A DNA stretch of 64,000 nucleotides, taken from Microcaldota archaeon. Lineage in GTDB: Archaea; Micrarchaeota; Micrarchaeia; Micrarchaeales; Micrarchaeaceae. A model generated the notes under the pieces. It worked only from the letters and a program-made list of their open reading frames with translations, searched no databases and had not been told where the DNA came from. The stretch is taken from the NCBI GenBank assembly GCA_021797895.1, contig JAJZYW010000002.1, positions 36,343 to 100,342 of the forward strand. The letters run 5' to 3'. Of the stretch, positions 13,139-15,828 are shown piece by piece. The position numbers and the translations under genes were made by a program. Every line of letters begins with the position of its first letter. Positions within the stretch are counted from its first letter, which is position 1.

Positions 13139-13870
13139 ATGATTATTGGTGCGTCTATGGACAGGCTTACCTTCAACGGCGTTGAACTTCCTGTGAGGAT
13201 ACTAGAAACAGGGAACCGCAACGCATATGCGAGGATACGCGACATGGAGGTCATAATAAGCGTGCCGCGCAGAATCAAAGGAGAAAAGCGCGACGACGTA
13301 GTCTCGAAGCTCTCTGAAAGCCTGAAGCGCTCGCTGGAGCGCAGCCCTGGAAAGATGCTGGGCTTCAGCAGGGAGCGATTCAGGGACGGGCAGGAGCTTG
13401 CGGCGCCCGGCTTGTCACTCAAGCTCTCCATATCGCAATGCGGGAAAAGGTTCAGCTCCTCCGTCAGAGAAGGAGTGCTGGCGATATGGGTGCCAGAATC
13501 TGAGCGGATGGATGGCAGCAAAGCCTCCTCCTACATGCACATGGCAGTTTCAAGGGCATTCCTTCCTTCCGTATCCGCATATGTTGAAAGGCTGAATGCG
13601 GAGCGCTTCGGCTCCAGGCTCGGCAGGGTGCGCATAGGCAGGGGCATGACGACACTCGGATCGTGCGACTCCTTCAACAACATAACGCTTAACTCCAGGC
13701 TATTCGCGATGGGCCCCTATGCTTTGGAGTACGTGGCTGTGCATGAGCTTGCCCACACGCGTTTCCACAACCACTCGAAAAGGTTTTGGGGCGAGGTTGA
13801 GCGAGCCCTGCCTGATTATAGGGAAAGGAAGGTATGGATTTTCAGGGAAGGATGGAGGCTCGAAGCCTAA
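13139..13870 (+). CDS. YgjP/DUF45-type M48-like metallopeptidase
   Basis: 'VAVHELAHTRFHNHSKRFWGEVERALPDYRERK' signature. Confidence 0.85.
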   Translation: MIIGASMDRLTFNGVELPVRILETGNRNAYARIRDMEVIISVPRRIKGEKRDDVVSKLSESLKRSLERSPGKMLGFSRERFRDGQELAAPGLSLKLSISQCGKRFSSSVREGVLAIWVPESERMDGSKASSYMHMAVSRAFLPSVSAYVERLNAERFGSRLGRVRIGRGMTTLGSCDSFNNITLNSRLFAMGPYALEYVAVHELAHTRFHNHSKRFWGEVERALPDYRERKVWIFREGWRLEA

Positions 13871-13975
13871 ACCGCGCTGCCATAAGAAAGGGCAGACCGT
13901 GGTTCGCAGTAGAGCGCAGAAATGCTTAAAAACTCATGCTGTGATGCGTATTCAGTGAATTAATAGGTGAAAAAT

Positions 13976-14140
13976 ATGGATCCAGGACGCGGAAGCAGTG
14001 GTTTGGTTGGCGAGGGTAAGGATGACCCGGGACGCGGAAACAGTGGCTTTGTTGGAAAGGGCAAAGATGATCCTGAGCGTGGAAGCACAGGTTTTGTTGG
14101 TGAAGGCAAGGATGACCCAGGACGCGGAGACACAGGCTGA
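13976..14140 (+). CDS. 54-aa glycine-rich protein built of 15-aa repeats (not in the supplied ORF track)
   Basis: Translation M-[DPGRGSSGLVGEGKD][DPGRGNSGFVGKGKD][DPERGSTGFVGEGKD]DPGRGDTG*; SD-like aggtga and TATA-like cttaaaaa upstream. Confidence 0.65.
   Translation: MDPGRGSSGLVGEGKDDPGRGNSGFVGKGKDDPERGSTGFVGEGKDDPGRGDTG
13979..14137 (+). repeat. 45-bp coding tandem repeat, 3 full units + 24-bp partial
   Basis: Units at 13979-14023, 14024-14068, 14069-14113, partial 14114-14137. Confidence 0.9.
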
Positions 14141-14300
14141 ACAGATTTTTCTTGTTGGCTTTTCCTCATTTTGTTAGTGAATAGTTTATCTTTTGAAATG
14201 CGCTTGTCGTATGCGGCTTTCTCCTGTTATGCTGCGAAGTATGCCATTTATGCAAGAACTGCATGATGGCAATTATGCGGTGGATGCAGATACACCGCAA

Positions 14301-14445
14301 AGCGCAGAAATGCTTAAAAACCCATGCTGTGATTGAATCTCAGTAAATTAATAGGTGAAAAATATGGATCCAGGACACGGAAGTACAGGCTGAACATGCT
14401 TTTCTTGTTAGCTTTTACTCATTTTTTTAGTGAATAGTTTATCTT
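14301..14445 (+). repeat. Degenerate tandem copy of the 13913-14193 segment, internal repeats missing
   Basis: agcgcagaaatgcttaaaaa[c/t]ccatgctgtgat...aattaataggtgaaaaatatggatccagga shared upstream; matching 3' flank ending tagtgaatagtttatctt. Confidence 0.85.
14364..14393 (+). CDS. 9-codon micro-ORF MDPGHGSTG*, contracted paralogue of the 54-aa repeat protein
   Basis: Same SD and start context as 13976; offset 388 nt at the ATG and 253 nt at the stop, difference 135 = 3x45 nt. Confidence 0.35.
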   Translation: MDPGHGSTG

Positions 14446-15828
14446 CGGATATGCACTCTTTTCTCCGTACTCAATCAGTATTCTGTTCTGGTTGGAGTAA
14501 TAGTTGTCGAATCTCCTGATTCCTATGCTGCCAGCTACGATATCAGACACTATTGATATGCGTACCGCATCGCTTCCTGTGGATTCTTCTATGTCGTGCG
14601 ACAGTCTGCTCGAATCGCCATCGTTGAAGATAGGCGAGATGTACAGGCCGCCCTCTATGTCTGTTATGTCGCCTACGAAAGCATGCTTGTTTACTATGTT
14701 GCTTTCCCCTATTATGTTGCGTAGTATGCTCTTGATTCTTCCAGACCAATCGTTCTGGTTGTGCTTTGCGACATGGAATATCGCTTCATATTTCATCTGC
14801 AGCCCTGCAATGTTTATTGTCGGCCTTTTTATTATGCCCTGCTCAAGAAGCCGAAGGTAGGTGTACCTTGATGCTCCGCCTTCCAGCCCCAAGCCTGAAT
14901 CCATCTCTGCAAAGCTGATTGAGGAATTCTGGTTCATCAGGCTCAGGACGTCGTACTCTCTTTTCCATATGGTTCCAGCTGTCTTTTTCGGCGAATCCTT
15001 TGTACGCCTGTATACTTTGGATTGCAGCATCTTCTCGAAGAATTCCTGCCTTAGTGGCACGTAGCCGTACGTATTGTAGAAAAGTATCACCTTCCACTCC
15101 ATGCTGTAGCCTGGAAGTATGCTTGAGCGCAGGTTGTACAGCATCTCCTTTGCCCTGTCTATGCTGTTCTCAACAAGGACGTACATGAAGAGGTCGTAGT
15201 CCCCCTTTGTTAGAGCTGCGAACTGGACCATCGGCTCGGATTCTACAGCTGCCTTTATCTCCTCAAATTGGGGCTTCTTATCAAGGAACTTCGCGTTCAC
15301 TATATAGTATACGTATCCAAGCTTCTCTACGTTTATCTCAAGTGTATATTTTATACCGAGCTTCTTTTCTAGGGCGAGTATGCTGTACCGCGTCCTTGGC
15401 TGCGACCAGCCCAGCATCTTGCCAAGATACTGCTGCGATATCCTCGAATTCATGCTGAGAGCCTGCAGTATAAACAAATCACGCTCGTCAAGCTTGGGCT
15501 GGATGATTTGAGCCTCAGAATCGTTTCTCACGGATCCCTCTTGCTGCAGCCCTGCCTGATCCGCATACCTCGCTTTGTCAACACGCTGCCTTCTTGCCTG
15601 GTATCTGTGCCTTGCAGGTATGAAGAGGCCGCTCTGATTTATCCTGCCAAGGTACCTGCTTTTCCTGACGCTGCTCTCAGTATCTGCATCTCTTATTGCT
15701 AAACGTTCGTATACGCAATAGCTCCCGTTTATAAGCCTTATCTCGATATTTGGGCTGTATTCCCTCTGCAAAGCCTCGAACGCAGCCCTTATCGGCTCCG
15801 GCGCTGAGTCTATCACCCTTGTCATCAT
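14419..15828 (-). CDS. Large Lrp/AsnC-like winged-helix regulator with two HTH-like segments
   Basis: 'KLDERDLFILQALSMNSRISQQYLGKMLGWSQPRTRYSILALEKKLGIKYTLEIN' Lrp-like HTH followed by RAM-like segment; second HTH-like 'KREYDVLSLMNQNSSISFAEMDSGLGLEGGASRYTYLRLLEQGIIK'. Confidence 0.6.
   Translation of the reverse strand: MMTRVIDSAPEPIRAAFEALQREYSPNIEIRLINGSYCVYERLAIRDADTESSVRKSRYLGRINQSGLFIPARHRYQARRQRVDKARYADQAGLQQEGSVRNDSEAQIIQPKLDERDLFILQALSMNSRISQQYLGKMLGWSQPRTRYSILALEKKLGIKYTLEINVEKLGYVYYIVNAKFLDKKPQFEEIKAAVESEPMVQFAALTKGDYDLFMYVLVENSIDRAKEMLYNLRSSILPGYSMEWKVILFYNTYGYVPLRQEFFEKMLQSKVYRRTKDSPKKTAGTIWKREYDVLSLMNQNSSISFAEMDSGLGLEGGASRYTYLRLLEQGIIKRPTINIAGLQMKYEAIFHVAKHNQNDWSGRIKSILRNIIGESNIVNKHAFVGDITDIEGGLYISPIFNDGDSSRLSHDIEESTGSDAVRISIVSDIVAGSIGIRRFDNYYSNQNRILIEYGEKSAYPKINYSLKK

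Follow-up and report, generated by a model that had tools for sequence, protein, structure and literature searches.

A nine-codon micro-ORF and its convergent double-Lrp regulator form a candidate gene module in Micrarchaeota

A nine-codon open reading frame (ORF) beside the 3' end of a double-Lrp regulator gene looks like one instance of an undescribed regulator-micropeptide family in one order of tiny symbiotic Micrarchaeota. The locus was analyzed in a window of 64 kb, i.e., the whole stretch of DNA under study, and all positions are numbered on that window. The window belongs to genome G000, and its congeners are G001 and G002. Our preferred reading, held at a probability of about 0.5 from comparison of sequences, is that the ORF is a real translated micropeptide gene in a two-gene module with the regulator, that the peptide acts as a dedicated cytoplasmic ligand or antagonist, and that gene duplication sets its dose. 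If so, independent genes of 5 to 15 codons, below the size called by gene finders, are conserved over deep divergence and are tied to a regulator family present in most sampled genera of one archaeal order. To our knowledge, neither a peptide-responsive Lrp regulator nor an archaeal peptide-regulator pair would have been known before. A description of the pairing was not found in the open-access library searched, and one may exist elsewhere.

Two tandem copies at the locus

The features of the locus are listed in Table 1. Copy 1 was composed of four DPGRGxxG-type octapeptides with three (L/F)VG(E/K)GKD spacers between them, and it was the sole array recognized by TRF in the window (13982-14128, period 45, 3.3 copies). 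Copy 2 holds a single unit. The initial annotation had stated that the copies differ by exactly three units, and this is exact: the offset is 388 nt at the ATG and 253 nt at the stop, i.e., a difference of 135 = 3 x 45 nt. It had also stated that copy 2 keeps the promoter, Shine-Dalgarno (SD) site, start and 3' flank. TATA box, SD, start and stop were all found intact. The upstream flank of approximately 63 nt (AGCGCAG..TATA..AGGTGA..ATG) is 90.6% identical between the copies and the downstream flank of 58 nt is 87.9% identical, so the flank similarity is not due to chance. The promoter element CTTATAAAC/CTTAAAAAC was kept in the remaining copies within the genus.

Table 1. Coordinates of the features at the locus (window numbering)
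Feature	Position	Strand	Basis or remark
YgjP-like metallopeptidase gene	13139-13870	+	directly upstream of copy 1
TATA-like box of copy 1, CTTAAAAAC	13925..13933	+	sequence
SD of copy 1, AGGTGA	13965..13970	+	sequence
Copy 1, 54-aa multi-unit peptide from ATG	13976..14140	+	sequence
45-nt repeat units of copy 1	13979-14023, 14024-14068, 14069-14113, 14114-14137 (partial)	+	
3' flank of copy 1, T-rich terminator-like stretch and duplicated regulator tail	14147..14204		tail SAFQKINYSLTK and stop on -, stop at 14166
TATA-like box of copy 2, CTTAAAAAC	14313..14321	+	sequence; BRE-like GAAATG upstream
Imperfect dyad CTGTGATTGAATCTCAG, possible operator	14327..14343		between TATA and SD of copy 2
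SD of copy 2, AGGTGA	14353..14358	+	GGTGA-type site precedes most micro-ORFs
Copy 2, single-unit micro-ORF MDPGHGSTG and stop	14364..14393	+	sequence; orthologs in G002, G001
3' flank of copy 2, counterpart of 14147-14204	14400..14457		overlaps true 3' end of regulator gene
Convergent regulator, 469 aa, N-terminal beta domain then wHTH-RAM-wHTH-RAM	14419..15828	-	Pfam, PDB sequence search, AF2, Foldseek

The duplication reached beyond the ORF. In the 3' flank of copy 1, SAFQKINYSLTK can still be read, against SAYPKINYSLKK at the genuine end of the regulator gene, and the last 12 codons of the regulator were duplicated along with the micro-ORF. Therefore, the duplicated unit consists of promoter, micro-ORF, terminator and regulator tail. 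When the window was scanned strictly for Gly-containing ORFs of 5-20 codons with SD and TATA, one match was obtained, at 14364. The direct neighbors in the window are the regulator gene and the YgjP-like gene; in G001, another gene lies upstream of the locus.

The duplication proposed in the initial annotation holds, whereas the clean loss of repeats from copy 2 is unlikely; the expansion of copy 1, which had been offered as the other option, is likelier, because the single-unit form is the rule across the order, including G001. In this closest outgroup, the regulator is 78% identical and the micro-ORF is MDPGRGDSG, with several synonymous changes in the comparison with copy 2, and no second copy was found in the genome, which is 78% complete. 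The ortholog of copy 2 in G002 is MDPGRGSTG, and that of copy 1 is 91% identical with an equal unit number. The nine-codon ORF is thus most likely the normal form, and copy 1 an expanded four-unit precursor, as judged from these relatives. That copy 2 is instead a contracted and decaying duplicate is hardly credible. The 3 x 45 nt arithmetic and the clear kinship of the copies agree with such a decay, but the single-unit form stands in G001, in G002 and next to regulators order-wide, the signals of copy 2 are intact, and the substitutions (below) are of the coding type. The contraction reading was rejected on these grounds, the suggestion of debris found no support, and that of a functional micropeptide gained it. 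Variation of length among relatives was not seen: G002, the second species available, has the same 54 aa and 9 aa at the same offset of 388 nt.

The terminal patches of the copies are placed crosswise in the two species. In G000, the patch CAY..TGAACATGC closes copy 2 and CGC..TGAACAGAT closes copy 1. In G002, the two are reversed, with CAY..TGAACATGC at the end of copy 1 and CGC..TGAACAGAT at that of copy 2. The terminal unit and 3' flank therefore appear to have been exchanged between the copies since the species split, which suggests gene conversion and a locus that recombines.

The regulator and its pairing with micro-ORFs

The regulator gene stands tail-to-tail with copy 2. In the Pfam scan, HTH_24 was matched, HTH_AsnC-type was above the cut-off, and AsnC_trans_reg was weak and below it. 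Profile search of PDB returned archaeal and bacterial Lrp proteins, e.g., 1ri7 and 1i1g. The AF2 model, made from 29 sequences with a mean pLDDT of 86.8, showed two wHTH-RAM halves in succession behind an N-terminal beta domain, and the best folds in Foldseek were the double-Lrp NirDL structures 4czc/4ch7 and single Lrp proteins. An AsnC-type wHTH followed by a RAM domain places the regulator in the Lrp/AsnC superfamily. The N-terminal beta domain (residues 28-71, consensus INGRYYVYE..YLGKIT..G) matched no Pfam family.

The pairing was counted over the 111 distinct regulators for which 250 nt or more of downstream sequence was available. Under the strict test, an ORF on the strand opposite the regulator counted if it had 6-20 codons, an SD and a Gly content of 25% or more. 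Such an ORF lay no further than 250 nt from the stop in 51/111 regulators, vs 1/1318 windows from other parts of these loci. The controls gave 1/101 and 2/101 on the 5' side and 10/2220 in dinucleotide shuffles. A relaxed test (4-30 codons, SD and TATA, no composition rule) found 72/110 regulators vs 85/3888 GC-matched windows, 109/3338 windows of the complete genome of Ca. Micrarchaeum harzensis, and 150/2200 shuffles. Small ORFs co-directional with the regulator, a feature of leader peptides and attenuators, were found in 0/111 (strict) and 1/110 (relaxed); the micro-ORFs are convergent. After clustering of regulators at 60% identity, Fisher p was 1e-59 to 1e-73. Part of the loci had guided the choice of these criteria before the whole set was scored with them, so a whole-genome census is the cleaner test. 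Approximately 35-50% of the regulators had no micro-ORF by these criteria, i.e., through variant start or SD, degeneration or true absence.

The composition of the micro-ORFs is distinct even under the relaxed test. Gly makes up 29.8% of their residues vs 5.3% in shuffles, and the residues are rich in Gly, Ser, Glu, Asp, Thr and Asn.

The census was carried out in Ca. M. harzensis, whose genome is complete (989,838 bp, one contig), over 50 stretches. All three full-length regulators (3/3) had a micro-ORF at the 3' end, i.e., MMGGSQ, MMGGAGGH and MKGGPNGGR. The three sites are at 277935, 648551 and 748208 of the genome, and a multi-unit ORF precedes 747865. The TATA box of MMGGAGGH (648551) is slightly variant and was missed by the regular expression. 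Genome-wide, no micro-ORF elsewhere combined SD, TATA and Gly, and the other SD-only matches were without TATA and far from any regulator. One layout reads MKGGTNGGKIIGGPHSGIVGGPHGG and stop, an 87-aa regulator tail fragment, MKGGPNGGR and a full regulator. At the level of sequence, this architecture is an independent repeat of the layout in the window with unrelated predicted peptides.

Evidence for selection on the peptide and its possible function

Differences between homologous micro-ORFs fell at codon positions 1/2/3 as 21/15/42 (p = 1.5e-4, and 0.003 without copy 1). In the copy-1 spacer FVGEGKD, the changes are almost all synonymous. Pentapeptides with C-terminal Tyr (MDGAY, MTGAY, MTSAY, MEGSY, MSDCY and MNGGY) are nearly confined to one regulator clade, and the MxGxY type changed 3 times on the regulator tree vs 11.3 times in shuffles, with 0/500 as low. 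Tandem multiplication of the unit occurs in other loci as well. At locus L134 (approximately 2180-2390, minus-strand orientation), 9-codon ORFs of almost the same sequence recur about every 45 nt, each behind an SD of its own, and encode MNGGNSGGG, MDSGNGGGS, MNGGNGGGS and MNGGNSGGS, with one more upstream. Such mini-operons were also found at L089, L128 and L003. The codon-position bias, the tandem mini-operons and the clade-specific peptides support translation of the predicted micro-ORFs and selection on the peptide.

Candidate genes of five codons, M-x-x-x-Y and stop (mostly MxGxY), were observed on the 3' side of the regulator at L053, L055-L058, L084 and L125. They are possibly among the shortest conserved protein-coding genes.

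The similarity of peptides was compared with that of the regulator domains in a joint regression. It tracked RAM1 best (rho 0.23, 0/500 permutations as high), a modest correlation with phylogeny partly corrected for, and it was uncorrelated with HTH1, RAM2 or the C-terminal tail (tail rho about 0). Since the peptide follows RAM1 and not the tail, cassette switching, in which the duplicated 3' tail would carry receptor specificity, was rejected, and the tail may simply hitchhike.

In the preferred reading, a micro-ORF of about 4-20 codons would be transcribed as its own short transcript from its own archaeal promoter, and with its own SD the peptide would be made in the cytoplasm. The peptide would bind the neighboring regulator as ligand or antagonist, probably at the RAM domain, which is the effector-binding domain of Lrp proteins. 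Its dose would set the activity of the regulator and presumably that of the genes under it. The dose could evolve by tandem duplication through two amplification routes, i.e., mini-operons of separate micro-ORFs or in-frame fusion into multi-unit precursors like copy 1, with the regulator-proximal single-unit gene (copy 2) retained. Cleavage may release single units from fused copies, or the fused copies may be multivalent ligands.

A secreted signal was weighed against this. The micropeptide would be exported, accumulate and be re-imported onto the regulator, as an archaeal analogue of RRNPP or Rgg-SHP systems; multi-unit copies would raise the output, and many orthogonal pairs would be private channels. 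The two-gene logic is shared, with the peptide gene beside a cognate intracellular regulator, many paralogous pairs occur per genome as in the Alo systems of Paenibacillus (PMC7425212), and the multi-copy precursors look like those of pheromones. However, the ORFs of 5-15 codons have no leader or hydrophobic export segment, and the OppA-type SBP_bac_5 and the OPT transporter were not found in 8 genomes, while the control search for SBP_bac_5 was positive in 11/14 genomes. The secreted signal is less likely for these reasons, and we regard it as unlikely. Viral carriage in the manner of arbitrium was rejected, with no relative among viral_contigs.

The close convergence of the two genes leads to another explanation, in which expression of the micro-ORF dampens the regulator gene in cis by antisense interference or 3' UTR overlap, with little importance of the peptide sequence. 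On the opposite strand, the end of the micro-ORF is usually only tens of bases away from the regulator stop, and the 3' flank of copy 2 overlaps the last regulator codons, both as expected for a cis element. The Gly-rich composition, the position-3 bias and the clade-specific peptides are not, and mini-operons and fused units multiply the peptide rather than an antisense transcript. Distal copies, moreover, do not overlap a full regulator gene. We consider such an element quite improbable. A structured RNA was rejected, as no Rfam match was found and the fold z-scores (-0.23, 0.80 and 0.88) indicated no unusual folding. Operator dyads as a general feature were also rejected, with weak enrichment over the whole set. 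At L047, L087 and L106, a perfect palindrome CATTCCA-(T/G)TT-TGGAATG (CATTCCATTTTGGAATG-type) lies between TATA and start codon as a candidate operator.

The micropeptide might instead be a toxin, a microcin-like precursor or other effector under control of the regulator and not its ligand. Type I toxins are multi-copy, like the micro-ORFs. Very short precursor genes do exist, i.e., mccA of 7 codons (PMC6495379). The peptides, however, are Gly-rich and hydrophilic and contain no hydrophobic stretch of the kind seen in type I toxins, and the regulator is the only constant partner found. An effector of this kind is very unlikely. A broader extension of the ligand reading is held more tentatively than the reading itself, with somewhat less than even odds: the module would be an archaeal signalling device built from gene arrays from five codons up, in which orthogonal micropeptides are each read by their own double-Lrp regulator and the dose is set by duplication as mini-operons or fused precursors. 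It could extend to signals between symbionts or to the Thermoplasmatales host.

Comparison with known systems and distribution

The module resembles the RRNPP, Rgg-SHP and Alo systems of Firmicutes in having a small peptide gene beside a presumed intracellular DNA-binding regulator, and the adjacency of peptide gene and receptor was found in 51/111 (strict) or 72/110 (relaxed) of the regulators counted. The differences are several. The RRNPP receptor is a TPR protein, whereas the regulator here has a double-Lrp fold and no TPR in the Pfam scan. RRNPP propeptides are defined as 10-100 aa with an export signal of Sec or SHP type (PMC10075063), whereas the micro-ORFs of about 5-20 codons have no visible leader and no precursor part. 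RRNPP systems use the Opp importer, of which SBP_bac_5 was absent from the 8 genomes, and they are known from Firmicutes, whereas the micropeptide module is archaeal. Gly-rich peptides are common to both, as the synthetic peptide tested for AloP13 was SHGRGG (PMC7425212).

With Lrp/AsnC (feast/famine) proteins, the regulator shares wHTH and RAM by Pfam, PDB sequence search and fold, but the HTH-RAM pair is duplicated in one chain, an N-terminal beta domain is added, and a micropeptide gene is paired with it. The effectors known for Lrp proteins are amino acids, and structures of complexes with Leu, Phe, Gln and Ile have been solved. The siroheme decarboxylases NirDL / AhbA-B (4czc, 4ch7) have a double Lrp-like architecture and gave the best overall fold match, at 12-13% identity; they are enzymes of the haem pathway, and the likeness is one of fold.

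The yeast alpha-factor precursor carries several near-identical peptide units and spacers in one ORF. Copy 1 differs in having no secretion signal and in its (L/F)VG(E/K)GKD spacer. Type I toxin-antitoxin systems consist of a small hydrophobic membrane peptide and an antisense RNA, whereas the peptides here are Gly-rich and hydrophilic and no Rfam match was found. The mccA gene of microcin C is likewise a separate gene that has its own SD and very few codons, and short ORFs favor reiterative translation (PMC6495379). It is accompanied by the modifying enzyme MccB, a ThiF adenylyltransferase, whereas the constant partner of the micro-ORF is a regulator.

The regulator family was found in 87/99 genomes of the two sampled families of the order, with 1 to 16 matches per genome, and in 176/301 genomes of the phylum sample, where matches beyond the order were weak. 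It was absent from every genome shown of three genera of the order (g15, g20 and g43). All named records with the family are Candidatus Micrarchaeota. The module is carried by Ca. M. harzensis (989,838 bp, PMC8975820) and Mia14 (952,257 bp, PMC5498576), for which we take G011. In the latter, regulators occur with micro-ORFs, at L118 MEKGPAGGG and MVGGY. Both come from cultivated co-cultures, so the module is directly testable.

The module recurs, within the same genome and in others. Elsewhere in G000, an equivalent promoter-leader precedes the Gly-rich ORFs MEGGAGGQADP, MEGGATGGTGP, MMGGSGEKGGH and MMGGAGEKGGQ, and a promoter-leader with a short Gly-rich ORF was also found in two congeners. 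These ORFs are placed tail-to-tail with either a related regulator gene or a duplicated regulator 3' end. Duplicated regulator tails beyond full genes were seen in G032 (Ca. M. harzensis), at L056, L093, L103, L113 and L116, and in the arrays of G002. Arrays of micro-ORFs with 3' pieces of regulator genes are situated on short contigs or where contigs end (G002:C35, G002:C32, and the starts of G000:C4 and G001:C9), so the assemblies probably break in arrays and copies are undercounted. A DPGRG-type regulator unit at L012 (G001:C31) has as neighbor the gene that also flanks a TASGGAGGA-type micro-ORF array at L020 (G002:C32). With a common neighbor gene and different micro-ORF types, the modules seem to change places.
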